This document shows positions 3,722-60,842 of a DNA stretch of 64,000 bases, one piece after another. A program made the position numbers and the translations under genes. This stretch comes from Tethya wilhelma (taxonomy: Eukaryota; Porifera; Demospongiae; Tethyida; Tethyidae). Below the pieces are notes generated by a model. That model saw only the letters and a list, made by a program, of their open reading frames with translations, was not told the origin of the DNA and did not search any database. The stretch is from positions 5,237,132 to 5,301,131 of the forward strand of contig CAXIPT010000005.1 of NCBI GenBank assembly GCA_964030475.1, written 5' to 3'. Position 1 is the stretch's first letter. Every line of letters begins with the position of its first letter.

Positions 3722-6700
3722 ATGATGACTGGCTCACTGATGTACATGGTTGCTCTGGTCCTTCTCTGGTGGATTGCCAATGGAATCGCCAGCATTGCCT
3801 CCAAGTCTATGATGGTCTCACAGGACTCTAAGAACACCACCTGCACCTACATGAGTCTCACAGCTGCATTTGAGGATGTACGATGGCTAGAACTGACAGC
3901 AATTCAGCATCTGTTTGGAGCAGTGGCTTCGATAGTACTCTTGAAGGCACTTCAAGGAAAGACTGCATCAATATGGCCGACTGCTTCACCGAAAGCCACC
4001 ATTTACACTGCAGGATTAGCTAACGTAGTTGGAAATCTGGCTACTAATGCTGCGTATGCTCTGGTCAGCTCCGGTGCCACACAGGTGATAAAATCCTACG
4101 AACCAATCTTCACGTTCTTTCTCTCGCTGTGTCTCTACAAGAACTACAAAGACGACCTCACCGTGGCAACCTTGGTGTCCATCGTGACAATGAGTGCCGG
4201 AGCCTGTACGTTTGTGGTGTTGGATAAGTCGCTCAATGTGTGGGGACTGCTTGCAGCCATCTGTTCCAACATGGGTTTTGCAACGAGGAATATTTTCCTC
4301 AAGAAACTCGCCTGGGACAGTCCAATACAAAAATATGTGGTCATTTCCATTTGCAGTGTGATATTACTACTACCAATAGTTCTACTGAAGATGGTTCTTG
4401 TTTCAACAAGCACATCGCTGTTGACACATGCCCAGGAGAGCATTGTCTCTGCCGCCTCCCACTTCACCTACAACACTGCTTCAATCACTGTCCTACAAGA
4501 CATCACTCCCCTCACTCACGCCACACTGAACCTTGCAAAGAGGGTGTTTGTCATCATAGCCAACCTTATCTACTTCCGTACCCCAGTCTCAACCACCATG
4601 CTCATGGGACTACTAATCTTCTTCACTGGGCTTGCTCTCTACTCAACTAGAAACAGACGCTCTGTCAAAGAGGCTGCTTCAATGGTGGCATTCTTTGTTG
4701 TAATGACTGGCATTTGGCTGCATTGTCAGCACATTTACTTCAGCATACAAACGACTGGTCATGAGCAAAGACAGCAACAAATAGCTAGTGTTTCCTCTGT
4801 GGACATTAAGAGTGAGTTGAGTTACAACCAGCAAATTCTTACAACAAAAATGACTAAGGACTTGCAAACTGTACCACCCAAACTGGATATACCGACTGTT
4901 CCTTTGAAAGTGAACTTGCAAGCTTCTCCTGTACTGTTCAAAAAGTGCAAGTCCTACTCTTACACTATCTCAACAGCTTGGACATATGACCGACCATTAT
5001 CAGCTGATCTACTGAAGAATATTGAGCACTTGCACAATATGGAACCTTGTACGCGAATCAATGTGTACTGTGGAACTTCTCCGTGTGTGCGTGAAATCAT
5101 GGACATTATGGATGATCCCAGTATCACTGTTGAGTTCCTCGTGATCAGTGACCTAGTGAAGGACACACCTCTTGAGAAGTGGTTTGCCAGACATCCTCTC
5201 TACAAAGTCTTGGCAGGAATAGATTTTGAGGAACATCTTCAAAGAGTAGTTCAGCTTGGAATCTTGCTAAAATATGGAGGCATTTACATTGATCCCAGGA
5301 TCAGAGTGACAGGAGAGAATCAAATACTCACAAACCACTCTTGTGTGAATGGATGGGCTAGTAGCAAAGTAGAAATTGATGTTGTGTGTTTTCCAAAAGG
5401 GCACACATTCATTCAAACACTCGCTGAGTATTTTGTCCATTACTATCCCAGACAGGTTAGCAAAAGGCTCAGGTTTTCTTTCAAATTTGGCAATGTCCTG
5501 AAACGTGCTTTCACTGACCCAAAACTTGACCGTCCTGATATTGTTGTACTGGATTATAAGAAACTGGAAGAAAACAAGACTCTGCTTGAGCGTCACCACT
5601 TTGGAGTCTTGTGGTTTGACAGGGAAGAAAAGGTGAATAAATGGAGCAATCGCGGAGATGAACTCCAATCGCTGGCAGGATTGCAATTCCTCCCCTTTGT
5701 TGATAATCTCGTCGATAGAGACAGAATGAGTCTCTTGCCACCAGAAGAAGAACCACTGACAATTTTCCTTAATGCTTGGTATGACAATCACACCAAAAAT
5801 TGGCCACCTCCTGGAAATCTTCGTCCCATTATGACTTCGGTGCGTGTCCAAAACAATGTACAAGATATGTGGGCAGTGAGTAGCGATTTCCTTAAACAAA
5901 ATCAACCAATTGGATGCCAAGATTTGAATTCGCTCAAGTTTTTAAGACAGCTAAACATTCAATCGTATTTCTCTGGTTGTTTGACACTCATGTTCAGAAG
6001 TCCATCGTTAAATCAAAAAGAAACTGATGGAATTTATTTTGTCGACGTAAAGTGGGACATTATACGACTCTTTCCACAAGAGATCGTGGAGAATAGCACC
6101 ACTCTTCATTTTGGAACCGGCTACGTGTTCAGTGGCTTGAGACTCTTCTCAGAAGCCTACAATCTCTTGGAGGAATATGCAACAGCAAAGGTGGTGATCA
6201 CACAGCGCATACAGTGTGCAATGTCGTGTGTTGGAATGGGAATACCGGTCGTTTTCATCGACTCTCCTCAAATGCCTGGTGGTCAAGGATCAACCACACA
6301 AAGCTCCCCAGAAATGCACGAACTAACACCTATGTTTCATACTGTGAACTTGTATGATATGTCCATGAGTGAGGCTGTAGAAGTACTGGAAAACTTTCCG
6401 TGGGATAACCCCCCACCTAATCCTAATCCTGGGATGATGATGAGAATGAGAGCCACTTTCTGGAATGTTATTCGTCAAAATGAAGCACTTCACGATGCTG
6501 CTCACAAGTTTGGAATGATACCTCTGCAACCTCCTCCTGTGCTGGCCTCAGAGAGAGAACAAGATGAAAAACTGACTTTCCATTTGGTGTTCACTGAGTC
6601 GACCTTCAAGTGGTATCATTGGCGAACAGTGGAGTCCATTTTCCACCATCATCCCTTTGCTAAAGTCACCATCCATAGCAACACACTGCAGCAGTCTGAA

Positions 6701-7357
6701 TTCCATGTGTTAACAGATTCCGGGTACTCAATTGAAGTAGAAGACTACTCCTTAACTGAACTACTGAAGGACACCCCAGCTGAAGAGTTCATATCAAAAC
6801 TCTCAAGTGCAAAGTCTAGTCCTCATTGGCAAAGTCATGAAACCAATCTCCTTCGACTGCTAGTACTGTACAAGTGGGGTGGAATCTACATGGACAATGA
6901 CATGATTGTTGTCAATCCACTGGACAAGCTTCCAAAGAATTTACTAATTTGGGAAGACATTAACAATCATTCAATAAGTGGATCTTTCCTGGCCCTCGAA
7001 AGAGACAGTCATTACTTAAGAGTTTGTCTAGCAGCCTATCCACAAAGCTATGATGACAATGACTCGAGTGGTCTTGAACTCCTGACTGGTGTCTGGAAGC
7101 AATGGGTGAACAAGAGTGAAGTTGTTGCGATGCAAAGTGATCTTTTTTACATGTTCACTGAAAGTAAAGTACAGACTGAATGCTTCTCTATAAACCCTTT
7201 CTTTGATGTTGACATGAAATTTGTCAACGAAGAAGCTCATGCTGTGCGTTTAAGCTTCAATAGTGAAGAGACTGATTTTAAAATTCCAATAGCTGAAGGA
7301 ACAATCTGTAAGCACATTTTAAACTCTTTCTGTGTGCTTTGTGATACACAGTACTGA
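3722..7357 (+). CDS. fusion copy 1: TPT transporter + GT32-like + pyruvyl transferase + GT32-like
   Basis: One uninterrupted 1211-residue frame. Residues 1-310 form a ten-helix TPT/DMT carrier (QVIKSYEPIFTFFLSL, KRVFVIIANLIYFRTPV). A further hydrophobic segment at about 319-341 would place the rest in the Golgi/ER lumen. Residues about 416-575 resemble a GT32 fold but carry GGIYIDPR, so the second DXD aspartate is lost. Residues about 640-925 match polysaccharide pyruvyl transferase (NRGDELQ, FLPFVDNLVDRD, LNAWYDN, SGCLTL, GMGIPVVF). Residues about 950-1205 are a second GT32-like domain with an intact DND (GGIYMDNDMIVVNPL at 1053-1067) and a C-terminal Cys trio. Unlike copies 2, 3 and 5, the pyruvyl-transferase motifs are altered: GCQD for GCRD (731-734) and RIQC for RIHC (829-832). 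The domain reading is firm. Substrates (PEP, sugar nucleotide) are inferred. The start is the first of two adjacent ATGs. Confidence 0.9.
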   Translation: MMTGSLMYMVALVLLWWIANGIASIASKSMMVSQDSKNTTCTYMSLTAAFEDVRWLELTAIQHLFGAVASIVLLKALQGKTASIWPTASPKATIYTAGLANVVGNLATNAAYALVSSGATQVIKSYEPIFTFFLSLCLYKNYKDDLTVATLVSIVTMSAGACTFVVLDKSLNVWGLLAAICSNMGFATRNIFLKKLAWDSPIQKYVVISICSVILLLPIVLLKMVLVSTSTSLLTHAQESIVSAASHFTYNTASITVLQDITPLTHATLNLAKRVFVIIANLIYFRTPVSTTMLMGLLIFFTGLALYSTRNRRSVKEAASMVAFFVVMTGIWLHCQHIYFSIQTTGHEQRQQQIASVSSVDIKSELSYNQQILTTKMTKDLQTVPPKLDIPTVPLKVNLQASPVLFKKCKSYSYTISTAWTYDRPLSADLLKNIEHLHNMEPCTRINVYCGTSPCVREIMDIMDDPSITVEFLVISDLVKDTPLEKWFARHPLYKVLAGIDFEEHLQRVVQLGILLKYGGIYIDPRIRVTGENQILTNHSCVNGWASSKVEIDVVCFPKGHTFIQTLAEYFVHYYPRQVSKRLRFSFKFGNVLKRAFTDPKLDRPDIVVLDYKKLEENKTLLERHHFGVLWFDREEKVNKWSNRGDELQSLAGLQFLPFVDNLVDRDRMSLLPPEEEPLTIFLNAWYDNHTKNWPPPGNLRPIMTSVRVQNNVQDMWAVSSDFLKQNQPIGCQDLNSLKFLRQLNIQSYFSGCLTLMFRSPSLNQKETDGIYFVDVKWDIIRLFPQEIVENSTTLHFGTGYVFSGLRLFSEAYNLLEEYATAKVVITQRIQCAMSCVGMGIPVVFIDSPQMPGGQGSTTQSSPEMHELTPMFHTVNLYDMSMSEAVEVLENFPWDNPPPNPNPGMMMRMRATFWNVIRQNEALHDAAHKFGMIPLQPPPVLASEREQDEKLTFHLVFTESTFKWYHWRTVESIFHHHPFAKVTIHSNTLQQSEFHVLTDSGYSIEVEDYSLTELLKDTPAEEFISKLSSAKSSPHWQSHETNLLRLLVLYKWGGIYMDNDMIVVNPLDKLPKNLLIWEDINNHSISGSFLALERDSHYLRVCLAAYPQSYDDNDSSGLELLTGVWKQWVNKSEVVAMQSDLFYMFTESKVQTECFSINPFFDVDMKFVNEEAHAVRLSFNSEETDFKIPIAEGTICKHILNSFCVLCDTQY

Positions 7358-7446
7358 TAAATTTTCTTACATCTTCAGTTGTAATATCTGATCATGATTA
7401 TGATTTGAAATTGTGTGCTATAATGAACTTTCCAGCTTTTGAGTTC

Positions 7447-7650
7447 TCGCTTTCAATCTGCACATGCGCATATTAGTTCGGCACCAAGGAGCATATACCA
7501 GTGGATAGCTCAAAGTGGGTGTATGTGTTTAACAGAGGTGGTTTTTAAGCTGTGTACTGCTAAACTAGAGTAGGCTGTGCCAACTAACTATTGAGCTGTT
7601 TGATTGGTAAACTTAAAATTTATTGTTACAAGTTAGATTTTTCCATTAAA
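7447..7650 (+). pseudogene. M20 peptidase relic with internal deletion
   Basis: A short motif like the 5' flank of the intact M20 gene (ctttcaatctgc.catgcgc, then agttcg; compare 33045-33090) is joined directly to its last coding bases and 3' flank. The join begins at gcaccaaggagcatataccagtgg and continues through the stop and the conserved gctgtgccaactaactattgagctg (compare 34620-34760). About 1.5 kb of coding sequence is therefore missing. It sits just downstream of fusion copy 1, the position an M20 copy also takes after copy 3. Confidence 0.8.
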
Positions 7651-7655
7651 ATTAG

Positions 7656-7665
7656 TAGGAAAAAG

Positions 7666-7711
<46 letters not shown>

Positions 7712-8146
7712 NNNNNNNNNNNNNNNNNNNNNNNNNNNNNNNNNNNNNNNNNNNNNNNNNNNNNNNNNNNNNNNNNNNNNNNNNNNNNNNNNNNNNNNNN
7801 NNNNNNNNNNNNNNNNNNNNNNNNNNNNNNNNNNNNNNNNNNNNNNNNNNNNNNNNNNNNNNNNNNNNNNNNNNNNNNNNNNNNNNNNNNNNNNNNNNNN
7901 NNNNNNNNNNNNNNNNNNNNNNNNNNNNNNNNNNNNNNNNNNNNNNNNNNNNNNNNNNNNNNNNNNNNNNNNNNNNNNNNNNNNNNNNNNNNNNNNNNNN
8001 NNNNNNNNNNNNNNNNNNNNNNNNNNNNNNNNNNNNNNNNNNNNNNNNNNNNNNNNNNNNNNNNNNNNNNNNNNNNNNNNNNNNNNNNNNNNNNNNNNNN
8101 NNNNNNNNNNNNNNNNNNNNNNNNNNNNNNNNNNNNNNNNNNNNNN
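7656..8146. other. poly-A run and assembly gap
   Basis: A run of more than 40 A (7670-7711) precedes 435 N (7712-8146). The gap hides the 3' end of fusion copy 2. By alignment to the M20/copy-4 junction (about 34800-35253) roughly 450 bases should be missing, close to the number of N. Confidence 0.95.
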
Positions 8147-11100
8147 GACTGCCTCTCTCAAGAGCCATGAAAGATCCACTTATCGAATGATTGTTTGTAT
8201 CTTCCCATGTAAGTACGTTCTTCAGCTTATCCAGTGGATTGACAACAATCATGTCATTGTCCATGTAGACTCCACCCCACTTGTACAGTACTAGCAGTCG
8301 AAGGAGATTGGTTTCGTGACTTTGCCAATGAGGACTAGACTTTGCACTTGAGAGTTTTGATATGAACTCTTCAGCAGGAGTGTCCTTCAGTAGGTCAGTT
8401 AGGGAGTAGCCTGCCACAGTGATATGGTAGCCAGAATCTGTTAGCACACGAAATTCAGACTGTTGTAGTGTGTTGCTGTGGATGGTGACTTTAGCAAAGG
8501 GATGATGGTGGAAAATGGACTCCACTGTTCGCCAATGATACCACTTGAAGGTCGATTCACTGAACACTAAATGGAAAAGCAGTTTTTCATGTCGTTCTCT
8601 CTCTGAGGCCAGCACAGGAGGAGGTTGTAGAGGTACCATTCCAAACTTGTAAGCAGCATCGTGAAGTGCTTCATTTTGACGAATAACATTCCAGAAAGTG
8701 GCTCTCATTCTTATCATCACCCCAGGGTTAGGATTAGGAGGAGGGTTATCCCAGGGGAAGTTTTTGAACAGTTCAACAGCATTTAAATTCAAATCCACAC
8801 TGTGAAATAGTTGAGAAAGTCCGGACAAACGTCCTGTTGCCTTTGAACGATACAAGAAAATGACTGGTATTCCCATACCAACACATGGCAATGCACAGTG
8901 TATGCGTTGAGTGACGACCACTTTTGCAGAAGAATAGAGCTCAATAAGATTGAAAGCATCTACGAATTGCTTGAAGCCATTAAACTTGCCTCCAAAATGA
9001 GTCTTGTGGATGGCACGACTTTGTATTTCCTCTGGGAAAAGTGGAATTTTGTCAGGATTTAAATCAACAAAGTAAATGTTTTTACGAGTTTTAGCAACAT
9101 TTATTTTAGTGAGACTCGGATTTCTCATGGTCAGTGTCATACACCCAGAGAAATAAGCCTCCACATCATGTTTTGTTAAGAAATCAACTGTAGCCATATC
9201 ACGACAGCCAACAGGGGCATGTTGCTTGAAATAGTCTATACTCGGCTGCTTCGAAAACACATTCACACCTGGAGAGATATGGATTGAGGTCATAATTGGA
9301 TCAATATTGTTGGGTGGTGGCCACTCAGTACTTGAATCTCCCCACCAGGCATTTAAGAAGGTTGTCACATGTTCCTTAGTGTTTATTTGAGACAAACGGT
9401 CTCTTTCGAGTAAATTATCAACATATGGCAAAAACTGCATTCCAGCAATAGCCTGTACTTCATCACCTAAATTGGCCGCGACAACATACTTCCAATGGGG
9501 CCGTTCATTGTACCACAGTGTTCCAAAGTGACGCTCTCTTGTTGTGTGGTCGTGTTTCTTGTGGTAAAGATGGATAGAATCAGGACACTTACTATTTGGA
9601 CACTCAATTTTCAAGACCTTCTGAAAGTCAAAATGAAACTGATGAAACGGATAACTTTCATCTTTGCCAGCTGTCTTAGGATACATTTTCACGAACATTT
9701 GTGAGAGGCTATTGATGTATGGATGAAGTTTGGGAAAGCAAACGACATCAAATTCCTCTCTACTTGTGACCCAACCATTGAGACAAGTGTTGTCTCTGAG
9801 GACTTGATTCTCTCCTGTCACTCTGATCCTGGGATCAATGTAAATGCCTCCATATTTCCATAAGATTCCAAGCTGAACGACTCTTTGAAGATGTTCCTCA
9901 AAATCTATTCCTGCCAAGACTTTGTAGAGAGGATGTCGGACAAACCACTCCTCAAGAGGTGTGTCCTTCACTAGGTCACTGATCACTAGGAACTCAGATG
10001 TGATACTGGGGTGGTTCAACTTGGCGACTGCACGCATACATTGTGACGTTCCACAGAAAACATGAGTACAAATCTTTTCACTTTGCCAACTCTTGATATT
10101 CTCAAGAATCTCAGGAGAGAGTGTTCTGTCAAAGACCCAGGCTGCTGAAATTGTTGATTGGCACTGCTGAGAACGACTACCTATGCTACCACTACCAGAA
10201 ACAACATGTTCAATGTGTGATTGGATCTTCTTGAAATCTAAGTTATCCTTTGAGAAATGATTGACTGTGTAAACATTATTATTGCTTCCAAAAGTGTATG
10301 GTGCTTGAATTCCTACACAAACCACTACTACACAGAAAACGATCACCCATGTAATTTCTTTGACTCCCTTTCTTTTTCTAAAGTTGTAGAGAGCAAGTCC
10401 AGCAAAGAAGATGAGCAAGCCTAATAACATGTTGATTGTCACAGGGGTACGGAAGTAGATGAGGTTGGCTATGATGACAAACACCCTCTTTGCAAGGTTC
10501 AGTGTGGCATGAGTGAGGGGAGTGATGTCTTGTAGGACAGTGATTGAAGCAGTGTTGTAGGTGAAGTGGGAGGTGGCCGAGACAATGCTCTCCTGGGCGT
10601 GTGTCAACAGCGATGTACTTGTTGAAATGAGAACCATTTTCAGAAGGATGGCTGGTATCAGTATTAGTGTACTGCAAATGGATATGACTGCATACTTTTG
10701 TATTGGACTCTCCCAGGCAAGTTTCTTGAGGAAAATGTTCCTCGTTGCAAAGCCCATGTTTGAACTGATGGCTGCAAGCAGTCCCCACACATTGAACGAC
10801 TTGTCCAACAACACAAACGTACAGGCTCCAGCACTCATTGTCACGATGGACATCAAGGTAGCTATGGTGAGATCTGCGTAGTTCTTGTAGAGAAGAAGAG
10901 AGAGGAAGAAGGTGAAGATAGGCTCAAACGACTTCACCACTTGTGTCACACTGGAACTAACTAATGCGTACGCTGCATTTGTGGACATGTTTCCAACAAT
11001 GTTAGCAAATCCTCCAATCCAAATGATTGTCTTGGGTGAGTCTGTCGGCCAAATTGCAGCTGACTTGCCTTTTACAATCTTCAGGAGTATCACCGATGCT

Positions 11101-11297
11101 ATTGCACCAAGGAGATGCTGAAACAATGTCAGTTCTAGCCATCTAAAGTCTTTGAAGGCAGGCTTTAAACTTGTCGATTGAGCACTCTCATAAACCACTC
11201 CGTGTGTCACCATCATGGACTTAGAGGCAATACTTGTGATGCCATTAGCAACCCACCAGATAAGAACCACCACTATCATATGCCACCACTCACCCAT
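8147..11297 (-). CDS. fusion copy 2, C-terminus lost in gap
   Basis: Same architecture as copy 1, intronless, 1050 codons visible from MGEWWHM at 11297 until the frame enters the N run. Carrier, first GT32-like domain (GGIYIDPR), pyruvyl transferase and second GT32-like domain (GGVYMDNDMIVV) are all present. The pyruvyl-transferase motifs are intact (GCRD, RIHC), so this copy is predicted to be competent there. The missing end is about 110 residues judged by copy 4. An in-frame ATG 14 codons upstream exists, but MGEWW/MGAWW is the start shared by copies 2-5. Upstream of the ATG, ttacatatagcaaaactagtc resembles a splice acceptor, so a 5'-UTR intron is possible. It is tail-to-tail with the M20 relic, as copy 4 is with the intact M20 gene. 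Confidence 0.88.
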
Positions 11298-11344
11298 GAC
11301 TAGTTTTGCTATATGTAAATAAAATAAGTCATATTTCAAGGGGA

Positions 11345-11466
11345 GGTCATGACCATACGTGCTGTCCTAACACCTGTGACTGGGATCAAAATTTGATCAT
11401 TCGACCCCTTGATGCGATGTTGATCCCGGTCGTGGGTGTTAGTACATGCAGCAGGCATGGTTGTGA
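11345..11466. repeat. palindromic element (gtcatgacca/ggtcgtgac type)
   Basis: About 120 bp folding back on itself: gtcatgaccatacgtgctgt...gactgggatcaa pairs with ttgatcccggtcgtgg...catggttgtgac. A related piece lies at 38632-38690 (gaccgggatcaaggtgcgatgaaggggtc). Both are just upstream of minus-strand fusion copies (2 and 4). Confidence 0.65.
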
Positions 11467-12470: not shown

Positions 12471-12471
12471 N

Positions 12472-14841: not shown

Positions 14842-14842
14842 N

Positions 14843-16212: not shown

Positions 16213-16235
16213 NTAGCAAAGCAAACTGTCCGTCC

Positions 16236-16943: not shown

Positions 16944-16947
16944 CCTC

Positions 16948-26885: not shown

Positions 26886-29800
26886 TTACACATTGCCAAA
26901 AACAAACCAAGATGAGACTAACTCTTGCAAGGCCAAATACTTTGATATTCCAAAGTTGTCCTCCAGCTCAGGTGAATCAACTAAAGATTGCACTAACAAC
27001 AACTGCGACGTAGTCAGGGAGATCCTGGGTGGATCGACAACCACCATTCCCTCATCATCAGGATTACCACAGGCACCGTTTTCTTCGACTCCATAATATG
27101 GATCTCTTCCTAACAAATCATCCACATCCAAGAGAGAACTAACAGTCTCATTAGAGCTTGCTAGAAGGCCAGTAATAAACAGCTGCTGAGGAGACATGTT
27201 GTGTTCAGTTCGAATTGAGTGATGGTTGAATTGAGACTGAAATTCAGTGAGTGATGTGTTAATACGTCTGAGGTATACTTTATGAAGGCAGTATAATTGT
27301 AAAGAATTTAGAGGATCCAAAGCTCCTTCGTTTTCTAAGTAGAAAAAAATGTTTCTATACTGACGAACAACAATTCTATTTACTTCTCTCCATAACCTTT
27401 CGATACGTTGATTATGTACTGAGCTTCCTGTGATGATACTCCCTCTTCCAACTCCTCGGTTTTCAAGCATCCACCTACCAACTGCCAAGTTTTCAAGACC
27501 TTGATCACTCCTTACTCTAGATGGTATTCCATGTTGTTGCACACCATTCAAAAATAGTTCCAGAACTGTGTCTGCTCTATTATTATCTGAGCACTGTAAA
27601 TAGGTGATAAGCCTGGAATATCCATCAATCCCTAATATTTTAATAGAAAAATAAGTGAGAATACAGGTATGTCTATCTCCTAGGAGATGTACAATAAAAT
27701 GTTATTATTATAAGCTTGATCAAGGCTTATATTATCGATCCACTGTTCAGTGCTCAATGATGCACAAAGGGTTACCCTACCTACCTTCAATTAGGGTTGT
27801 AGCTATCATAACCATTAAGTAAGAACTAAATTTTAACTTACCACCATGGATTACTAGCTTCCACCTAATTAGCTTATGCAGGCCATCCACATGCCTAAAT
27901 GTGTATGCATGTGTTAAAAATATTTTGTTAATCACGTGTCTTTTCACTTTCATGCAGGTACAAGGTAAAGTAGGTGTCTAACAATTATGATGGAATCATA
28001 AATTAATATCACACTGTTAAAAATGGCCTGTGTGTTCACCAACTTACACACCTCTAGTGTGTAAATCGTGCATTCAAGCATGATCATGTAACTCAAAAAC
28101 TTCTTTGGATGTTGAAAATGAATATTTCAGTATTCAATCCCCAGAAAAGTGTATTTTAATGAAGATATTCTTCTTTGAACTTAAACCACATCAAACGTTT
28201 CCATGGCAACAGGCAAAAGGTGTTGCTTAAGACCCTAGAGTGTAAAACTAGAGGAGGTATGACACGAGTGTGCCTTTGTTGAGCTGGCAAGCAAGTGCAC
28301 GTGATCAACTCTCATTGTGAAGTATTACAGTCACATGATTGGAATGTAATTAACAGACTTGCCAGCTCAGCAAAGGTGCACTTGTGTCAAACCTAAGCAG
28401 TTGTGTGAACACACTATTTTTAACAGTGCATGCTATATACTACTAAGTATATCATCACCATGGGCAAATGAAAATGCCTTAGCACCACTCACCATAAACA
28501 GTTTGGAGAAGGAACAGAATATTGCCGCCTCATGGTAGTCACTCTTCTTCGAACTATCTGACTTAGTGGGTCAACTCTACGCATAGCATCAATGACACGC
28601 TGTCTCTGAACACGGATTCCTCTGGAGGATAGTGTTCCCAGCACCATAGTTATCCCAGAATGCATACTGTTCTGTAGTAAAGACATACACCTTATAAACT
28701 AACCACAGAAAAAAGTCAAGGACAGCCCCTATAAAGCTGTGACAACCTGAGAACTATAAACTAACCCCAAAGGTATTTTAATGAATACTCCATACACATG
28801 ACCATATATGGGCCAAAGTAAGATCACACACAAAAAATGCCAGCTTAGCTATGAAGTCCAAGTGTGGTATTGGTGAATCAGCCACAGCATGATACACAGT
28901 TATATGTAAAAAGAAATCATGCATAAAGTATTAATGCAAGTTTTCTTGTATACCAACTTAATCAGCAACTCAATGAAAATGGCTTAATTTACCCTCACAG
29001 AGAGAGTCTGGTATGCTATTAATGATTTTACTGGGTATCTATAGGCAATCTTGAATAAGGCAAGGCAATCACAGTGCTAGTCTGACTATGCACATGCAGG
29101 CAAGCTGACCAGTCATTGTCACACAGAGTAGTCATGTCATGTTTTGTGTGTACACTAGATACAGACAAAAACAAACTTAAGGTTTGTACTAGCTTACTCA
29201 CAACCTGTAGCTATAATCTCATTAGTACACTCATTACAAAATTAATGTGACAGGCTGTTGCCCAGATAAGAAAAGGGATACACTTTGGCCAAGCAAACAA
29301 AGCTGTGAAAGTGGTTATGGGGGCTGGCCATGTGGCCCACTAGCTCTTATAAACTGGGAGAAGATGATTGGGGGTGAGAAAGTTCATTGGATATCACATC
29401 AATACTGGTGGGCTGCCAATAACAATTAAAGGACTTGCAATTTTTACAGAGAAGGCTAGACAGACAGACACAGAGAAAATTGAAGTTATTTTACACCACA
29501 TAATTGATGTCATCCCAGGCCTTTGGTAAAAACCTCTACAATCATGCTGGCTATTGGCAAACATAATTAATCATACCTGCACAATATCTCTGATAACTTC
29601 ATCAAGGTCATTGTCAGGCAAGTTTGTATAGCCTCGACCAAGTGGTAAGTTATGTTCTATTCTTCTACGTAGTATGGTTCTTTCTGATACACCAAACATA
29701 CGAGAAATTGAGGCATAGTTAAACCCTGCCTCAATAAGGATTTCCAATTGTGCTTTCGATATTTCAAAAGATGGTCTACCAGCTCCACCATGAGTCAGTT

Positions 29801-33209: not shown

Positions 33210-34715
33210 ATGGCATCAATAAGATCTGAAGTTGACAGATGGGCGCCTGAACTGGTGAAGCTGCTTGAGTCCAAGTGGGCTGAGATAGAAGATGATACTG
33301 TAGAGCTACTCCAAAAATTGATCCAGACGGACACACAAAACCTCAAGGAAGATGGCTCTGAAACTCTTGCAGCTTTGGTGATAAAGGAGAAATTTGATGA
33401 AGCAGGTGTTTCCTATGAAATGGTAAAAGGTCATGAAGACCGAGCCAACATTGTTGGTCGAATTCCTGGTGATGGTTCATCTGGATTGGGAGCCATCATG
33501 CTTAGTGCTCACTTGGACACTGTCCGAGCTCCCAAGGAGAACTGGGAGGAAGAAGGATGGAAGCATAACCCTTTTGGAGGGGTGATTGATGAAGAAGATG
33601 GTTGTCTTTATGGACGTGGTGCAGTCGACATGAAACAAATGGCCGCCATGTCTGTTGTCATTCTTTGCTTTGTAAAAAAGAGTGGCATTATTCTTTCGAG
33701 AGATCTTATCTTTGCTGGAGTGGCTGACGAAGAACGTACCGATTCAAAATGGGGAGCAAAGTATCTTGTTGAAAATCGACCTGAACTGATAGAAGCTGAT
33801 GTCATTTTCAACGAAGTTGGTGGTTTCTCATTTTTCCTTGATGACAAAGAAGTGTTTCCTATTCAGATTGGCGAAAAGGGGAGTGTTCAAATCAAGATTA
33901 CAGCTAGGGGCCCTGGAGGACATGGGTCACTCTATCACAAGGAGAATCCCATAGCAACGATAGGTGAGGCGGCTCACAAACTACACACCACATATCTACC
34001 ACTTCGTATCAACATTGCTAACACGGCAACCATCATGAGCTTGGCAAATGTCCTGCCCTTTCCGAAATCTGTGGTCTTTCGTCGCCTCCTAAATCCTCTC
34101 TTCTCTGATTTCATCTCAAGGCAATTGCTGAACGACCAGCAGCGCAGTACGCTGGGACCTCTCATGCATAACACTGCCAATCCTACTGGAATCACTGGAG
34201 GTGGTGAACAACACAATCAGATACCTACTTCAGCTTCTCTCAAAGTCGATGCACGAATCCTTCCTGAGAGTACATCAGATGATGTTGTCGACGAAATCAA
34301 AGGAGTGTTGGGTAGAGAGCTTTTCGAGCCTCAACCAGGCCCTGATGGAGAGGAACAACCCCCTGTGATGATCTTAGAGGTGTTGAATGAGCGTAGTGCG
34401 TGTTTTCAAGACCCTTCAATGAGTTGCTGCCCAGAAGTGCTTGCCACCATAGCAGAAGTGATCAGGAGCCGTGCTGATGGTGCCGATATTGTGAATTCGC
34501 TCATTCCCGGTGGAACAGACTTCTACTGGTACATGAAGCACCCAACAAAGACACCCGTCTGTCTAGGCTTCGTTCCCTCGAGACTTCCTCAGGATTTGAA
34601 GTTTGCCGCTCTCTATCACGGCACCAACGAGCGTATACCAGTGGATGGCTTGAAGTGGGGTGTGCGTGTTTTGACGGAGGTGGTTTTTAAGCTGTGTACT
34701 GCTAAACTAGAGTAG
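33210..34715 (+). CDS. M20-family zinc metallopeptidase / deacylase, intronless
   Basis: 501 residues in one exon. Zinc and catalytic residues are all in place: SAHLDTV (H101, D103), YGRGAVDMK (D140), ADEE (E174/E175), NEVGG (E202) and YHGTNERIP (H470). A dimerisation/lid region around 220-350 begins GEKGSVQIKITARGPGGHGS. There is no signal peptide, so it is probably cytosolic. Such enzymes hydrolyse N-acyl amino acids, dipeptides or related amides; the substrate cannot be told. The sequence style (GRGAVDMK, HGTNERIPVDGLKWGVRVL) is closer to bacterial M20 proteins than to animal ACY1/CNDP, and it lacks introns among intron-bearing genes, so horizontal acquisition is possible. Two deleted copies travel with the fusion genes. 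It is convergent with fusion copy 4, stops 200 bp apart. Confidence 0.92.
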   Translation: MASIRSEVDRWAPELVKLLESKWAEIEDDTVELLQKLIQTDTQNLKEDGSETLAALVIKEKFDEAGVSYEMVKGHEDRANIVGRIPGDGSSGLGAIMLSAHLDTVRAPKENWEEEGWKHNPFGGVIDEEDGCLYGRGAVDMKQMAAMSVVILCFVKKSGIILSRDLIFAGVADEERTDSKWGAKYLVENRPELIEADVIFNEVGGFSFFLDDKEVFPIQIGEKGSVQIKITARGPGGHGSLYHKENPIATIGEAAHKLHTTYLPLRINIANTATIMSLANVLPFPKSVVFRRLLNPLFSDFISRQLLNDQQRSTLGPLMHNTANPTGITGGGEQHNQIPTSASLKVDARILPESTSDDVVDEIKGVLGRELFEPQPGPDGEEQPPVMILEVLNERSACFQDPSMSCCPEVLATIAEVIRSRADGADIVNSLIPGGTDFYWYMKHPTKTPVCLGFVPSRLPQDLKFAALYHGTNERIPVDGLKWGVRVLTEVVFKLCTAKLE

Positions 34716-34915
34716 GCTGTGCCAATTAACTATTGAGCTGTTTGATAAAATTAAAATTTATTGTCACAAGTTATTTGAGTTTACCATTAAATGGAAAAAA
34801 GAGACAATGCCGCTAATTTATGTGAAATACTAAGATTAATAACTAAACAATAACATTTACTAGTGCATTACACTGTCATTCACTAGTCTAAACAAATTTT
34901 GTGCATGTGATTGGG

Positions 34916-37900
34916 TCAGTACAAAGTATTACAGAGCACACAGTAGGAGTTCAAAATGTGCTTACAAATTGTTCCACTAGACAGCTTTGTACCTATGTCG
35001 TCAGTTGAGCTCAAACGAACAGCATAAGCTTCCTCTTTGACAAGTTTCATTTTCGCATCAAATGAAGAACCTTTTGAGAAGCATTCACTTTTGATATCTC
35101 TCTCAGTGAACATGTAAAAGAGGTCACTTTTCATTGCAACAACTTCACCCTTGTTCACCCATTGCTTCCAGACACCAGTCAGGAGTTTAAGACCTCTTAA
35201 GTCATTGTCACTGTAGCTCTGTGAGAAACCTGCAAGACAATCCCTCAAGAAGCGACTGCCTCTCTCAAGAGCCATGAAAGATCCACTTATCGAATTATTG
35301 CTAGTATCTTCCCATGTAAGTACGTTTTTCAGCTTATCCAGTGGATTGACAACAATCATGTCATTGTCCAGGTAGATTCCACCCCACTTGTACAGTACTA
35401 GCAGTCGAAGGAGATTGGTTTCGTGACTTTCCCAATGAGGACTAGACTTTGCACTTGAGAGTTTTGATATGAACTTTTCAGCTGGGGTGTCCTTCAGTAG
35501 GTCAGCTAGGGAGTAACCTACCACAGCGATATGGTAGCCAGCATTCATTAGCACATGGAATTCAGACTGCTGTAGTGTGTTGCTGTGGATGGTGACTTTA
35601 GCAAAGGGATGATGGTAGAAAATGGACTCCACTGTTCGCCAATGATACCACTTGAAGGTCGACTCAGTGAACAATAATTGGAATAGCTTTTGATCATCTA
35701 GATCAAGCTCCGAGGCCAGCACAGGAGGAGGTTGCAGAGGTACCATTCCAAACTTGTAAGCAGCATCGTAAAGTGCTTCATTTTGATGAATAACATTCCA
35801 GAAAGTGGCTCTCATTCTCATCATCATCCCAGGGTTAGGATTAGGTGGGGGGTTATCCCAGGGGAAGTTTTGAAACCATTTAGTAGCCTCTTCACTAGAC
35901 ATGGTGTACAAGTCTACAGTATGAAACAAAGGTGTTAGTCCTTTAGTGCGTGGGGACTTCTTGTTTTGTGTACCATCGTCGTCAGGTAACAAAGGAGACT
36001 GAATGAAGACGACTGGTATCCCCATTCCAACACACGGCACTGCACAGTGTATTCGCTCAGTGACAACCACTTTTGCTGAAGAGTAAAGCTCCATGAGATT
36101 GAAAGCATCCTCAAATTGCTTAAAGCCGTTAAATTCAGTTCCAAGGTGAGTTTTGTCGATAGCATGGCTTTCTATTTCGTTTGGAAAAAGTGCGCGGTTT
36201 TTACTATGGACATCAACAAAGTAGACATATTTGGGTGCTTTTGGGACACTCGGATTTCTCATCATTAGTGTCATACACCCAGAGAAGTAAGCCTCTACAC
36301 CATGTTCTGTTAAGAAATCAACTGTAGCTGTATCATGACAGCCAATAGGGGCATGTTGCTTGAAATTGTCAATACTCGACTGCTTCGAAAAAATTTTCTG
36401 GGCTTGAGAGTTGAGATGCAATGAGGTCATGATCGGATCAATATTGCTGGGTGGTGGCCACTCAGTACTTGGATCTCCCCACCAGGCATTAAAGAAAGTT
36501 GTCACACGTTCATTGGTTTCTACTTGAGTCATATGGTCTCTTTCGAGTAAATTATCGACATACGGTAAAAATTGTACTCCTGCAACAGCTTGTATTTCGT
36601 CGCCTAGATTGGCCGATTTGATCTGTTGGGTCCGTTTATGGTACCACAGTGTTCCAAAATGACGCTCTCTTGTTGAGTGGTCCTGTTTCTCATGATCAAG
36701 ATGTATAGAATCGGGACACTTTGCATTTGAGCAATCAATTTTCATGACACTTCGAAAGTCAAAACGGAACCGATAGCTTTCATCTTTGCTAACACTCTTA
36801 GGATAGAGTTTCACAAACTCCTGTGAGAGGCTATTGATGTATGGATGAAGTTTGGTAAAGCAAGTGATATAGAATTCCTCTCTACTGGTGACCCAACCAT
36901 TGAGGCAAGGATTGTCTGTAAAGACTTGCTTCTCTCCTGTCACTCTGATCCTGGGATCAATGTAAATGCCTCCATATTTCCACAAGATTCCAAGCTGAAC
37001 GACTCTTTGGAGATGTTCCTCAAAATCTATTCCTGCCAAGACTTTGTAGAGAGGATGTCGGACAAACCACTCCTCAAGAGGTGTGTCCTTCACTAGGTCA
37101 CTGATCACTAGGAACTCAGAGGTGATACTGGGATTGTTCAACGTGGCGACTGTACGCATACATTGTGACATTCCACAGAAAACATGAGTACAAATCTTTT
37201 CACTTTGCCAACTCTTGACATTCTCAAGAATCTCAGGAGAGAGTGTTCTGTCAAAGACCCAGGCTGTTGCAATTGTTGATTGGCAGTGCTGAGAACTACC
37301 AGATCCTTCAGAGTTTTTGCTTCCAAAAATGTGTGGCGCTTGAAATCCAACACAAACCACTACCGCACAGAAAACGATCACCCATGTGATTTCTTTGATA
37401 CCCTGTCTTTTTCTAAAGTTGTAGAGAGCAAGTCCAGCAAAGAAGATGAGCAAGCCTAATAACATGTTGATTGTCACAGGGGTACGGAAGTAGATGAGGT
37501 TGGCTATGATGACAAATACCCTCTTTGCAAGGTTCAGTGTGGCGTGAGTGAGGGGAGTGATGTCTTGTAGGACAGTGATTGAAGCAGTGTTGTAGGTGAA
37601 GTGGGAGGCGGCAGAGACAATGCTCTCCTGGGCGTGTGTCAACAGCGATGTACTTGCTGAAATGAGAACCATCTTCAGGAGGATGGCTGGTATCAGTATT
37701 AGTGTACTGCAAATGGATATGACTGCATACTTTTGTATTGGACTCTCCCAGGCAAGTTTCTTGAGGAAAATGTTCCTTGTTGCAAAGCCCATGTTTGAAC
37801 TGATGGCTGCAAGCAGTCCCCACACATTGAACGACTTGTCCAACACCACAAACGTACAGGCTCCAGCACTCATTGTCACGATGGACATCAAGGTAGCTAT

Positions 37901-38326
37901 GGTGAGATCTGCGTAGTTCTTGTAGAGAAGAAGAGAGAGGAAGAAGGTGAAGATAGGTTCAAACGACTTCACCACTTGTGTCACACTGGAACTAACTAAT
38001 GCGTACGCTGCATTTGTGGACATGTTTCCAACAATGTTAGCAAATCCTCCAATCCAAATGATTGTCTTGGGTGAGTCTGTCGGCCAAATTGCAGCCGACT
38101 TGCCTTTCACAATCTTCAGGAGTATCACCGATGCTATTGCACCGAGGAGATGCTGAAACAATGTCAGTTCTAGCCATCTAAAGTCTCTGAAGGCGGGCTT
38201 CAAACTTGTCGATTGAGCACTCTTCACTCCGTGTGTCACCATCATGGACTTAGAGGCAATACTTGTGATACCATTAGCAACCCACCAGATAAGAACCACC
38301 ACTATCATCTGCCACCATGCACCCAT
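34916..38326 (-). CDS. fusion copy 4: TPT transporter + GT32-like + pyruvyl transferase + GT32-like
   Basis: 1136 residues, intronless, starting MGAWWQM. The linker after the eleventh membrane segment is the shortest of the set (FGSKNSEGSGSSQHCQS). GGIYIDPR is again in the first GT32-like domain and GGIYLDNDMIVV in the second. In the pyruvyl-transferase part RIHC is intact but the arginine of GCRD is histidine (GCHD). The C-terminal tail TICKHILNSYCVLCNTLY is complete. Upstream, ctgtttacag followed by atagcaaaactaggcaaagctcatc and the ATG suggests an acceptor of a 5'-UTR intron. Tail-to-tail with the intact M20 gene; the same arrangement exists, partly deleted, at copy 2. Confidence 0.92.
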   Translation of the reverse strand: MGAWWQMIVVVLIWWVANGITSIASKSMMVTHGVKSAQSTSLKPAFRDFRWLELTLFQHLLGAIASVILLKIVKGKSAAIWPTDSPKTIIWIGGFANIVGNMSTNAAYALVSSSVTQVVKSFEPIFTFFLSLLLYKNYADLTIATLMSIVTMSAGACTFVVLDKSFNVWGLLAAISSNMGFATRNIFLKKLAWESPIQKYAVISICSTLILIPAILLKMVLISASTSLLTHAQESIVSAASHFTYNTASITVLQDITPLTHATLNLAKRVFVIIANLIYFRTPVTINMLLGLLIFFAGLALYNFRKRQGIKEITWVIVFCAVVVCVGFQAPHIFGSKNSEGSGSSQHCQSTIATAWVFDRTLSPEILENVKSWQSEKICTHVFCGMSQCMRTVATLNNPSITSEFLVISDLVKDTPLEEWFVRHPLYKVLAGIDFEEHLQRVVQLGILWKYGGIYIDPRIRVTGEKQVFTDNPCLNGWVTSREEFYITCFTKLHPYINSLSQEFVKLYPKSVSKDESYRFRFDFRSVMKIDCSNAKCPDSIHLDHEKQDHSTRERHFGTLWYHKRTQQIKSANLGDEIQAVAGVQFLPYVDNLLERDHMTQVETNERVTTFFNAWWGDPSTEWPPPSNIDPIMTSLHLNSQAQKIFSKQSSIDNFKQHAPIGCHDTATVDFLTEHGVEAYFSGCMTLMMRNPSVPKAPKYVYFVDVHSKNRALFPNEIESHAIDKTHLGTEFNGFKQFEDAFNLMELYSSAKVVVTERIHCAVPCVGMGIPVVFIQSPLLPDDDGTQNKKSPRTKGLTPLFHTVDLYTMSSEEATKWFQNFPWDNPPPNPNPGMMMRMRATFWNVIHQNEALYDAAYKFGMVPLQPPPVLASELDLDDQKLFQLLFTESTFKWYHWRTVESIFYHHPFAKVTIHSNTLQQSEFHVLMNAGYHIAVVGYSLADLLKDTPAEKFISKLSSAKSSPHWESHETNLLRLLVLYKWGGIYLDNDMIVVNPLDKLKNVLTWEDTSNNSISGSFMALERGSRFLRDCLAGFSQSYSDNDLRGLKLLTGVWKQWVNKGEVVAMKSDLFYMFTERDIKSECFSKGSSFDAKMKLVKEEAYAVRLSSTDDIGTKLSSGTICKHILNSYCVLCNTLY

Positions 38327-41300: not shown

Positions 41301-42064
41301 AAAAAATGGTCGGACTCCCATGAGGGGACCAAACCAAAATTCCAGTGACAGGCCTACTTCCTACTTAAAACGATTGATCAATATAAATTATGACATTGTA
41401 GAATCCAGATTTAGGCAGTTTTTTGTTGCTACTGCATTAAGTCAAGTTGTCATCTGCTGACCTATAGCTGGGTGTCTCAGTCTCACTCTCTGCTCCACAG
41501 TTCTCTAGTGAAATCTACCTGTTGACACTCGAGCATTATACACAGGCATGTTCAGCAATGTCTGCAGCGAAGATAATGTGCATGGGTAGGGCGCAGAAAT
41601 ATTTAATGCTGTAGTAGAGGAACCATACAAACTCTCTCTAAGCTACAGTACGGTCTCTCTACAGGCAACATCATTTACGTGATTTCACATACCAGGCTCT
41701 CTCTCTTCTTATTGCTGGGAGAGAGCCTGGGAACGAGGCTAATTGTTATCCAGTTTGGAAGAAGTGTCCCCTAAATTCCAATTAATCCATAATTATGTAC
41801 ATGCAGTGCATGCATGTGTTAATAGTCAGCATGTGTGTATGCATGGAATTTGTCTGGCCATGGCTTGCCAGAAGAGTATGTAATCACAGCTTTATATAAT
41901 TATATGCTGCTGCACTTGAGTGTTTTAGGAGCTAGTAAATTAATTAATGTATATAGTAATAAAATGTATAAGTGGTAAACATTTAATTAAATTTTCTAGA
42001 AGTCAAGTGATATATTTTCTTGATTCTTTGATAGCTGGTGCAAGTTTACTGTTCAAGTAGCATC
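38327..42064. other. intergenic between divergent fusion copies 4 and 5
   Basis: 3.7 kb with no gene I can support. Contents: a palindrome fragment 38632-38690; the inverted 48-bp repeat 38880-38927; a (GT)n run 40109-40138; the dispersed aggcttatgcaccatcggtgcc motif at 40330-40352; and a foldback element at 41620-41742 whose relative lies before copy 3. Copies 4 and 5 are divergent, so both promoters should lie here. Confidence 0.55.
41620..41742. repeat. foldback element upstream of fusion copy 5
   Basis: gaggaaccatacaaactctctct ... taccaggctctctctcttcttattgctgggagagagcctgggaacgaggcta matches the right half of 19259-19522. The shared upstream element supports copies 3 and 5 being duplicates that include promoter sequence. 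Confidence 0.72.
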
Positions 42065-45000
42065 ATGGGTGAGTGGTGGCAGATGATAGTGGTGGTTCTT
42101 ATCTGGTGGGTTGCTAACGGCATCACAAGTATTGCCTCCAAGTCCATGATGGTGACTCACGGAGTGGTTCACAAGAGTGCTCAATCGACAAGTTTGAAGC
42201 CCGCCTTCAGAGACTTTAGATGGCTAGAACTGACATTGTTTCAGCATCTCCTCGGTGCAATAGCATCGGTGATACTCCTGAAGATTGTGAAAGGCAAGTC
42301 GGCTGCAATTTGGCCGACAGACTCACCCAAGACAATCATTTGGATTGGAGGATTTGCTAACATTGTTGGAAACATGTCCACAAATGCAGCGTACGCATTA
42401 GTTAGTTCCAGTGTGACACAAGTGGTGAAGTCGTTTGAACCTATCTTCACCTTCTTCCTCTCTCTTCTTCTCTACAAGAACTATGACGACCTCACCATAG
42501 CTACCCTGATGTCCATTGTGACAATGAGTGCTGGAGCCTGTACGTTTGTGGTGTTGGACAAGTCGTTCAATGTGTGGGGACTGCTTGCAGCCATCAGTTC
42601 AAACATGGGCTTTGCAACTAGGAACATTTTCCTCAAGAAACTTGCCTGGGAGAGTCCAATACAAAAGTATGCAGTCATATCTATTTGCAGTACACTAATA
42701 CTGATACCAGCCATCCTCCTGAAGATGGTTCTCATTTCAACAAGTACATCGCTGTTGACACATGCCCAAGAGAGCATTGTCTCTGCCGCCTCCCACTTCA
42801 CCTACAACACTGCTTCAATTACTGTCCTACAAGACATCACTCCCCTCACTCATGCCACACTGAACCTTGCAAAGAGGGTGTTTGTCATCATAGCCAACCT
42901 CATCTACTTCCGTACCCCTGTGACAATGAACATGTTATTAGGCTTACTCATCTTCTTTGCTGGACTTGCTCTCTACAACTTTAGGAAAAGAAAAGGAGTC
43001 AAAGAAATTACATGGGTGATCGTTTTCTGTGCGGTAGTGGTTTGTGTTGGAATTCAAGCACCATACATTTTTGGAAGCAAAAACACTGTCTATACAGTCA
43101 ATCATTTCTCAAAGGATAACTTAGATTTGAAGAAGATCCAATCAAACGTTGAACATGTTGTTTTTAGTAGTGATAGCATACTAGGTAGTCGTTCTCAGCA
43201 GTGCCAGTCAATAATTTCAACAGCCTGGGTCTTTGACAGAACACTCTCTCCTGAGATTCTTGAGAATATCAAGAGTTGGCAAAGTGAAAAGATTTGTACT
43301 CATGTTTTCTGTGGAACGTCACAATGTATGCGTGCAGTCGCCAAGTTGAACAATTCCAGTATCACGTCTGAGTTCCTAGTGATCAGTGACCTAGTGAAGG
43401 ACACACCTCTTGAGGAGTGGTTTGCCCGACATCCTCTCAACAAAGTTTTGGCAGGAATAGATTTTGAGGAACATCTTCAAAGAGTTGTTCAGCTTGGAAT
43501 CTTGTGGAAATACGGAGGCATTTACATTGATCCCAGGATCAGAGTGACAGGAAAGAATCTAGTCCTCAGAGACAACACTTGTCTCAATGGTTGGTTCACT
43601 AATAGAGAGCAATTTGATATTTCCTGCTTTTCCAAACTTCATCCGTACATCAAAAGCCTCTCACAGGAGTTTGTTGAAATGTATCCTAAGAATGTTAGCA
43701 AAGATGAAAACTATCATTTTCATTTTGATTTTCAGAGTCTCATGAAAATTGATTGCCGAAATAGCAAGTGTCCTGATTACATCCATCTTCCTCATGAGAA
43801 ACACAACCATGCAACAAGAGAGCGTCACTTTGGAACACTGTGGTACAATGAACGGCCCCATTGGGAGCATGTAAAGACAGCCAATTTGGGTGATGAAGTA
43901 CAGGCTATTGCAGGAATACAGTTTTTGCCATATGTTGATAATTTACTCGAAAGAGATCGTTTGGCTCAAATTGAAACTAAGGAACATGTGACAACCTTCT
44001 TCAATGCCTGGTGGGGAGAGCCATCTGTTCAGTGGCCACCCCCCAAAAATATTGATCCAATTATGACTTCAATGCATATCAACTCTCAAGCTCACAATGT
44101 GTTTTCAAAACAGCGGAGTATTGACTATTTCAAGCAACATGCCCCTGTTGGCTGTCGTGATACGGCTACAGTTGATTTCTTAACAAAACATGATGTGGAG
44201 GCTTACTTCTCTGGGTGTATGACACTGATGATGAGAAATCCGAGTGTCACTAAAACTCGTAAAAACATTTACTTTGTCGATGTAGATCGTGGCCATCTCA
44301 GACTTTTCCCAGAGGAAATAAAAAATCGTGCTATCTACAAGACTCATTATGAATATAAATTTAATGGCTTTAATCAATTTGTAGGTGCTTTCAATCTCAT
44401 GGAGCTCTATTCCTCAGCAAAAGTGGTCGTCACTCACCGCATACACTGTGCTTTGCCATGTGTTGGAATGGGAATACCAGTCGTTTTCTTGTGTCATTCA
44501 AACCCATCAGGACGTTTTTCTGGACTTACTCAGCTTTTTCACAGTGTGTATTCGGATTTAAGTGAATCGATTGAATTGTTGGAAAACTTTCCCTGGGATA
44601 ACCCCCCACCTAATCCTAACCCTGGAATGATGATGAGAATGAGAGCCACTTTTTGGAATGTCATTCGTCAAAATGAAGGACTTCACGATGCTGCTCACAA
44701 GTTTGGAATGGTACCTCTGCAACCTCCTCCTGTGCTGGCCTCAGAGAGAGAACGAGATGAAAAGCTGCTTTTCCATTTAGTGTTCACTGAGTCGACCTTC
44801 AAGTGGTATCATTGGCGAACAGTGGAGTCCATTTTCTACCATCATCCCTTTGCTAAAGTCACCATCCACAGCAACACACTACAGCAGTCCGAATTCCATG
44901 TGCTAACAGATTCTGGCTACCATATCATTGTTGCAGGCTACTCCTTAGATGGCCAGTTGTTGAAGGACACCCCAGCTCAAGATTTCATATCAAAACTCTC

Positions 45001-45544
45001 AAGTGCAAAGTCTAGTCCTCATTGGGAAAGTCACGAAACCAATCTCCTTCGACTGGTAGTACTGTACAAGTGGGGTGGAATCTACATGGACAATGACATG
45101 ATTGTTGTCAATCCACTGGATAAGCTGAAGAACGTACTTACATGGGAAGATACAAGCAATCATTCGATAAGTGGATCTTTCATGGTTCTTGAGAGAGGCA
45201 GTCATTTCTCAAGGGATTGTCTTGCAGGTTTCTCACAAAGCTACAGTAACAATGATTTGAGTGGTCATAAACTCCTGACTGGTGTCTGGAAACAATGGGT
45301 GAACAAGAGTGAAGTTATTGCAATGAAAAGTGGCCACTTTTACATGTTCACTGAGAGAGATATCAAAAGTGAATGCTTCTCAAAAAGTTTGTTTGATGCA
45401 AAAATGAAACTTGTCAAAGAGGAGGCTTATGCTGTTCGTTTGAGCTTAACTGAAGACATAGGTACAAAGCTGTCTAGTGGAACAATTTGCGAGCACATTT
45501 TGAACTCCTACTGTGTGCTCTGTAATAATTTGTACATGTATTGA
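42065..45544 (+). CDS. fusion copy 5: TPT transporter + GT32-like + pyruvyl transferase + GT32-like, intact
   Basis: 1159 residues from MGEWWQM. An in-frame ATG nine codons earlier exists but is not shared by the other copies. All landmarks are complete: ten-helix carrier and an added hydrophobic segment (WVIVFCAVVVCVGIQAPYIF); a linker of about 60 residues; GGIYIDPR; pyruvyl transferase with GCRD and RIHC; GGIYMDNDMIVV; full C-terminal tail (TICEHILNSYCVLC). Together with copy 2, the best candidate for a fully active protein. It keeps the unoccupied version of the transposon target (tctagtggaac). It converges with UVRAG, stops about 440 bp apart. Confidence 0.93.
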   Translation: MGEWWQMIVVVLIWWVANGITSIASKSMMVTHGVVHKSAQSTSLKPAFRDFRWLELTLFQHLLGAIASVILLKIVKGKSAAIWPTDSPKTIIWIGGFANIVGNMSTNAAYALVSSSVTQVVKSFEPIFTFFLSLLLYKNYDDLTIATLMSIVTMSAGACTFVVLDKSFNVWGLLAAISSNMGFATRNIFLKKLAWESPIQKYAVISICSTLILIPAILLKMVLISTSTSLLTHAQESIVSAASHFTYNTASITVLQDITPLTHATLNLAKRVFVIIANLIYFRTPVTMNMLLGLLIFFAGLALYNFRKRKGVKEITWVIVFCAVVVCVGIQAPYIFGSKNTVYTVNHFSKDNLDLKKIQSNVEHVVFSSDSILGSRSQQCQSIISTAWVFDRTLSPEILENIKSWQSEKICTHVFCGTSQCMRAVAKLNNSSITSEFLVISDLVKDTPLEEWFARHPLNKVLAGIDFEEHLQRVVQLGILWKYGGIYIDPRIRVTGKNLVLRDNTCLNGWFTNREQFDISCFSKLHPYIKSLSQEFVEMYPKNVSKDENYHFHFDFQSLMKIDCRNSKCPDYIHLPHEKHNHATRERHFGTLWYNERPHWEHVKTANLGDEVQAIAGIQFLPYVDNLLERDRLAQIETKEHVTTFFNAWWGEPSVQWPPPKNIDPIMTSMHINSQAHNVFSKQRSIDYFKQHAPVGCRDTATVDFLTKHDVEAYFSGCMTLMMRNPSVTKTRKNIYFVDVDRGHLRLFPEEIKNRAIYKTHYEYKFNGFNQFVGAFNLMELYSSAKVVVTHRIHCALPCVGMGIPVVFLCHSNPSGRFSGLTQLFHSVYSDLSESIELLENFPWDNPPPNPNPGMMMRMRATFWNVIRQNEGLHDAAHKFGMVPLQPPPVLASERERDEKLLFHLVFTESTFKWYHWRTVESIFYHHPFAKVTIHSNTLQQSEFHVLTDSGYHIIVAGYSLDGQLLKDTPAQDFISKLSSAKSSPHWESHETNLLRLVVLYKWGGIYMDNDMIVVNPLDKLKNVLTWEDTSNHSISGSFMVLERGSHFSRDCLAGFSQSYSNNDLSGHKLLTGVWKQWVNKSEVIAMKSGHFYMFTERDIKSECFSKSLFDAKMKLVKEEAYAVRLSLTEDIGTKLSSGTICEHILNSYCVLCNNLYMY

Positions 45545-60841: not shown

Positions 60842-60842
60842 A

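Follow-up and report, generated by a model that had tools for sequence, protein, structure and literature searches.

The window analysed here is the whole stretch of 64,000 nucleotides at bases 5237132-5301131 of contig C5, in the 124.6-Mb genome of the sponge Tethya wilhelma. It carries five long intronless open reading frames (ORFs), and each of them joins, in this order, a carrier of the triose-phosphate translocator (TPT) type, a GT32-like domain (GT1), a PF04230 pyruvyl-transferase-like domain (PvT) and a second GT32-like domain (GT2). The original prediction, made from this DNA alone, had proposed this order within single reading frames. Our Pfam analysis bore the order out in 5 of 5 ORFs, with the PF04230 match of copy 1 below the cut-off, and the single frame was found in every protein, the ORFs running to 1136-1237 codons (1211, 1237, 1137, 1136 and 1168 in copies 1 to 5, copy 2 being read across Ns). 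The TPT family PF03151 was matched by all five copies with E values of 3e-31 to 8e-33 and 109-115 bits against a cut-off of 30, PF04488 was matched by all five in two stretches apiece, and PF04230 was matched by four above its cut-off of 25.3 bits, copy 1 reaching 17.8 bits. Copies 2-5 share 83-88% pairwise identity, and between copy 1 and any other copy the figure is 63-64%. The copies and their parts lie at the following window positions.

3722-7357, + strand: copy 1 (P0001, 1211 aa)
Parts of copy 1, + strand: carrier 3722-4654, helix 11 4664-4735, GT1 4961-5638, PvT 5639-6532, GT2 6545-7315
7626-11339, - strand: ORF of copy 2 (P0002), homologous start Met at 11297
Parts of copy 2, - strand: carrier 10374-11297, helix 11 10293-10364, GT1 9483-10157, PvT 8622-9482, GT2 from 8609 downwards
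19582-22995, + strand: copy 3 (P0003, 1137 aa), the reference copy, with carrier site, PvT triad and GT2 DXD all intact
19582-20505, + strand: carrier of copy 3, residues 1-308, ten helices, TPT family
20515-20586, + strand: eleventh hydrophobic segment of copy 3, residues 312-335, with RKRQG just before it
20686-21351, + strand: GT1 of copy 3, GT32-like, DPR instead of DXD
21352-22221, + strand: PvT of copy 3, pyruvyl-transferase-like (PF04230), with NLGDE at 594, GCRD at 683-686, TxRIH at 777-781 and R809
22234-22992, + strand: GT2 of copy 3, GT32-like (PF04488), DND at 1001-1003
34916-38326, - strand: copy 4 (P0004, 1136 aa)
Parts of copy 4, - strand: carrier 37409-38326, helix 11 37328-37399, GT1 36620-37279, PvT 35729-36619, GT2 34958-35716
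42038-45544, + strand: ORF of copy 5 (P0005), homologous start Met at 42065, 1159 aa from that Met
Parts of copy 5, + strand: carrier 42065-42988, helix 11 42998-43069, GT1 43208-43873, PvT 43874-44725, GT2 44738-45496

In copy 2 a stretch of 435 Ns (7712-8146), next to a run of A, cuts into the last domain; the real stop is unreadable and the listed stop lies beyond the Ns, while the other four copies are fully readable. The family had been described as one of five copies, a number that proved too low, as the genome has 12 full-length ORFs. When the sponge's own genome was searched with copy 3, 27 segments matched. We group them into 21 places, of which 12 are full-length single frames (the window's five copies and L013, L014, L015, L017, L020, L021 and L023), three are carrier-less frames (L018, L019 and L022, 853-877 aa) and six are broken, partial or very short. 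Except for copy 2 with its Ns, the full-length frames are fully readable (11 of the 12), each being 1136 aa or longer. Another copy, made up of L026, L027 and L029 (C7:1257047-1260578), has a frame that breaks off near residue 825. In the carrier-less members, namely L018, L019 and L022 together with P0013, P0015, P0017, P0056 and P0057, the enzyme parts follow a short N-terminal hydrophobic stretch. A domain search of the genome, in which only the best candidates were scored and genes split by introns were largely missed, placed 13 of 13 PF04230, 18 of 18 PF04488 and 13 of 14 TPT matches inside the family places.

Public data yielded 53 matching proteins, three of which carry organism names: P0033 from the sponge Halichondria panicea, and P0040 and P0045 from the starfish Patiria miniata. 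These three proteins (1145-1163 aa) retain the four-part architecture with TPT, PF04230 and PF04488 all above cut-off; each bears the label uncharacterized protein, and two are additionally annotated with a sugar phosphate transporter domain. A quick tree, with SH-aLRT as its only support measure, was built from 67 rows, leaving out P0002 and including P0058 (see below); it placed the 14 own-genome rows in a single clade of 24 rows (support 100) and joined the two starfish proteins with P0031 (support 99). Both P0002, which is part Ns, and P0058 are excluded from the counts over 56 and 66 rows given below.

The best match of the carrier by sequence among solved structures was 5y78, a phosphate-bound TPT, with an E value of 5e-28 from a six-sequence profile; the next was SLC35B1 at 3e-5. 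The copy 3 carrier was modelled as a ten-helix DMT fold, for which Foldseek ranked 5y78 first (E 5e-11). However, VIA-align Z scores of 28.5 for 5y78 and 27.8 for SLC35B1 amounted to a tie, and fold rank was therefore dropped as proof of a TPT-type carrier. We take 5y78/5y79 to be the triose-phosphate translocator of Galdieria, and its phosphate site to consist, presumably, of T188, K204, R266, Y339, K362 and R363. T106, K122, R186, Y247, K270 and R271 of copy 3 align with these residues. All six are identical in 41 of the 56 carriers read on both sides, or in 45 if K270R is allowed, and all six are present in every window copy. For comparison, L049, a fragment from the same genome which belongs to a nucleotide-sugar-type carrier and looks like a GDP-fucose transporter, has V, Y, I, K and A, keeping one of the five covered positions, with position 122 doubtfully aligned; it is the one comparator of that type. 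An SLC35E1-like control protein has S, K, Q, Q, K and R and keeps three of the six. Since the phosphate-site residues are kept in the family and are mostly absent from L049, the sequence points to a carrier of the phosphate-exchanging type, not to phosphoenolpyruvate (PEP) in particular. The relation to TPT carriers claimed earlier is upheld, by PF03151 in all five copies and by the phosphate-type site residues. P0003 scored 87.7 bits with TIGR00817, the NCBIfam model of phosphate/PEP translocators, which is below the cut-off of 317.9; as the SLC35E1-like control outscored it with 196.5 bits, this match was dropped as evidence that the carrier is specific for PEP. The profile search with the carrier found 5 proteins, and the sequences compared included neither plant PPT nor yeast Pet1/Pet2.

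In the model of copy 3 (pLDDT 84.1, pTM 0.68), the ten helices of the carrier are followed by an eleventh at residues 312-335, preceded by RKRQG and modelled with low confidence, at about 60 and below. In 52 of 56 rows this segment has a hydropathy of at least 1.6; copy 1, with 1.56, is slightly under. In this carrier superfamily both termini lie in the cytosol. Because of this, the eleventh crossing is predicted to place the three enzyme domains on the lumenal side. The carrier-less L018, L019 and L022 open with hydrophobic anchors within their first 45 residues, which fits a lumenal placement of the enzymes. Sequon density, used as a topology test, showed no difference. The Golgi location of the fused protein is likewise a prediction.

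The middle region of the protein does match pyruvyl transferases, as had been foreseen. In copy 3, PvT begins at NLGDE, residue 594, upstream of the start of the Pfam match, and a cyanobacterial PF04230 protein is 40% identical to it across 280 aligned columns (E 1e-59). PvT could also be aligned end to end, at 33-39% identity, with 14 mostly bacterial proteins that were hand-picked among the 120 matches listed of 1861. Each of the 15 rows of this alignment matches PF04230 with an E value of at most 0.001, and R685, R779, H781 and R809 are invariant across it. R685, R779 and H781 occur together in 58 of 66 family rows; they are the equivalents of CsaB R148, R306 and H308, and R809 corresponds to K328 by eye only. 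These R/R/H residues are implicated in PEP binding in both CsaB and Pvg1p (PMC10435577). The same study gives R148K, R148Q, H308A and H308R of CsaB as inactive and H308K and H308S as active; the role of R306 came from docking alone, and K328R retained activity (PMC10435577). The match to solved Pvg1p (5ax7) was weak. A model of the isolated PvT was started at residue 622 whereas the domain starts at 594, and its fold search was weak as a result. Bacterial and viral scans, with search patterns drawn from PvT, matched that part only (11 genome-contig matches).

The triad is intact in copies 2, 3 and 5 of the window. Copy 4 has H/R/H, R685 being replaced by H, and copy 1 has an altered pocket with Q, R, Q and E at 685, 779, 781 and 809. 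To regard the five copies as equal factories would overstate this: judged by their pockets, copies 1 and 4 probably no longer pyruvylate. Outside the window, L020 and L023 have C/N/H at the triad positions. In all four of these proteins the GT2 DXD is intact and the PEP-pocket residues are altered, and they may be paralogues in which pyruvylation was dropped and glycosyl transfer was kept.

As regards the two GT32-like domains, the DXD of the second one, as originally predicted, was confirmed in all five window copies, and it is found in 41 of 66 family rows. Two working glycosyltransferases, however, were not borne out: DXD occurs in GT1 in 0 of 66 rows, without exception, and the second Asp is missing in all five window copies. 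Because of this absence, GT1 is likely a non-catalytic pseudo-enzyme. Cysteines 403 and 408 of copy 3 GT1 are nevertheless invariant in 56 of 56 rows despite the missing DXD, so that GT1 is constrained for another reason. PF04572 was below cut-off in the window and above it in the carrier-less relative P0013. In the metagenomic protein P0058 (989 aa), a GT1-like part, again lacking DXD, precedes PvT (570 columns at 30% identity); the protein has no carrier match and ends in a GT8 domain. Its make-up suggests an old association of GT1 with the pyruvyl transferase. Since GT32 is a family of retaining enzymes, GT2 would form an alpha linkage. By this reasoning the beta-galactose of the Microciona epitope would not be the work of GT2, and the link to that epitope is unproven. 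A giant-virus glycosyltransferase, A0A3G4ZUI3 from Edafosvirus (BFVD), was a Foldseek match to the copy 3 model over 597 columns (E 1e-16).

The nonsynonymous rate (dN) was lower than the synonymous rate (dS) in every region and pair computable (11 pairs), and dS was saturated in 5 of 55 region-pair cells. Among the pairs tested of C5 and C6 copies, dS was about 0.09-0.12 in the carrier and 0.17 to 0.80 in PvT. The C7/C1 group had the reverse pattern, with dS of 0.27 (carrier) and 0.14 (PvT) for L014 vs L015, and of 1.00 and 0.34 for L017 vs L014. Between the carrier and the enzyme parts, silent divergence shifts several-fold in L009 vs L013 and in L014 vs L015 and L017. Such unevenness would be the pattern expected from gene conversion or module exchange between copies. 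Co-variation of the carrier site with the PvT or GT2 motifs was set aside as not decisive, its counts being uncorrected for relatedness.

We consider it rather probable that one polypeptide imports PEP into the Golgi against phosphate and passes it to the attached domain, which places a pyruvate ketal onto a sugar. This reading is built on domain anatomy and residue conservation, from which we infer transport, chemistry and location. The carrier half would bring PEP into the Golgi lumen and let phosphate out as an antiporter, and the PF04230 domain would use the imported PEP to add the ketal. Each pyruvyl transfer would free a phosphate next to the exit site; the freed phosphate would then be the counter-ion sent back by the carrier, and the two halves of the protein would run one closed cycle. 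GT2 would add the neighbouring sugar, and the GT1 pseudo-enzyme would probably position the acceptor for the pyruvyl transferase.

It is unlikely, in our judgement, that the carrier instead imports a nucleotide sugar, or some other phosphorylated sugar, for GT2, with PvT taking PEP from elsewhere or being secondary. The phosphate-site residues are conserved in the family and mostly absent from L049, the single comparator; the GT2 DXD is intact in 41 of 66 rows against 58 of 66 for the PvT triad; and the carrier site is kept in 16 of the 21 members without the GT2 DXD. We would give similarly little credence to the idea that the PF04230-like domain is a relative with another activity, which would make the protein a carrier-linked glycan-modifying enzyme of other chemistry. 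Several points do weigh in its favour: the nearest relatives of PvT outside the family are mostly proteins of 300-350 aa, we know of no characterised member among them, and the match to Pvg1p is weak. However, PF04230 is above cut-off in four of five copies and matched with E values no higher than 0.001 in all 15 alignment rows, the PEP-binding R/R/H is conserved, and the attached carrier has phosphate-site residues. That neighbouring separate genes or retrocopied pseudogenes were read as one frame is hardly credible: the copies are indeed intronless, multiple and tandem, six more genome places are broken, partial or very short, and copies 1 and 4 have altered pockets, all of which count in its favour, but dN is below dS wherever computed, and separate genes or a read-through artefact were ruled out by 12 open full-length frames in one genome (one across Ns, 11 fully readable and of at least 1136 aa) together with the same 1145-1163-aa architecture in named sponge and starfish gene models.

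Beyond PEP import coupled to pyruvylation, we propose only tentatively that this self-fuelling Golgi machine, antiporter and transferase in one, could be the missing enzyme of animal glycan pyruvylation, kept in sponges and starfish, and could be responsible for pyruvylated glycans used in adhesion, the aggregation epitope of sponges among them. Clustered Calx-beta domains occur in sponge aggregation factor genes. The Tethya genome has at least 174 Calx-beta domain matches, many of them clustered, e.g. at C1:23.97-24.03 Mb, and Calx-beta proteins are candidate bearers of the pyruvylated glycans. The following other features were seen in the window.

26886-27701, - strand, and 60113-60886, + strand: mobile-element stretches, integrase-core and PNMA/gag-like
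33210-34715, + strand: M20-family peptidase, 501 aa, in one frame
52725-54650, - strand: COG6 (Golgi tethering subunit), 641 aa in a single open frame
55045-59202, - strand: three tandem RING-finger genes

To our knowledge, neither a fusion of a carrier with a pyruvyl transferase nor an animal pyruvyl transferase is known, and the open-access literature searched, with subscription papers mostly outside it, yielded no description of either. The component domains belong to known families; what is new is their fusion, as a probable variant of Golgi pyruvylation, with segment 11, predicted to direct the enzymes into the lumen, the phosphate-site residues of the carrier, the complete PvT domain and the DXD-less GT1. 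For the study of animal glycan pyruvylation, the family offers a gene on which expression, mutagenesis and assays are possible. Furthermore, if PEP is carried, this would be a solute carrier with a covalent link to the very enzyme using its cargo, which would allow a direct test of substrate channelling across the Golgi membrane.

Several known systems resemble parts of the protein. The Galdieria TPT (5y78/5y79) is the best sequence match of the carrier and the first in Foldseek, and it shares the phosphate-site residues; however, its His185 is Asn in the fused carrier, and it is a plastid protein without an attached enzyme. Short PF04230 proteins, mostly bacterial, have the domain standing alone, for example P0099 from Cyanobacterium sp. 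IPPAS B-1200 (324 aa). P0058 shares the GT1-like part without DXD and PvT with the family, but differs in its GT8 end and in having no carrier match. GT32 alpha-1,4-glycosyltransferases of the A4GALT/A4GNT type (PF04488, PF04572) resemble GT2 in the PF04488 match with DXD, and are single-domain type II proteins. As for pyruvylation itself, pyruvylated sugars are reported from the sea hare Aplysia and from the sponge Microciona, there in connection with the species-specific reaggregation of cells, and a 2019 review ranks Pvg1p third among the 4,6-ketal pyruvyl transferases with a characterised function, the earlier ones being CsaB and WcfO of bacteria (PMC6801904). The closest parallel is found in fission yeast, where separate PEP transporters, Pet1p and Pet2p, work with the Golgi enzyme Pvg1p (PMC4872226). 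PEP is carried there into the Golgi lumen, and a membrane-anchored PF04230-type transferase with R/R/H uses it (PMC4872226, PMC10435577, PMC6801904), an arrangement that is predicted for the sponge protein as well. However, the carriers and the enzyme of fission yeast are separate proteins, whereas in the sponge they are joined in one chain together with two GT32-like domains.

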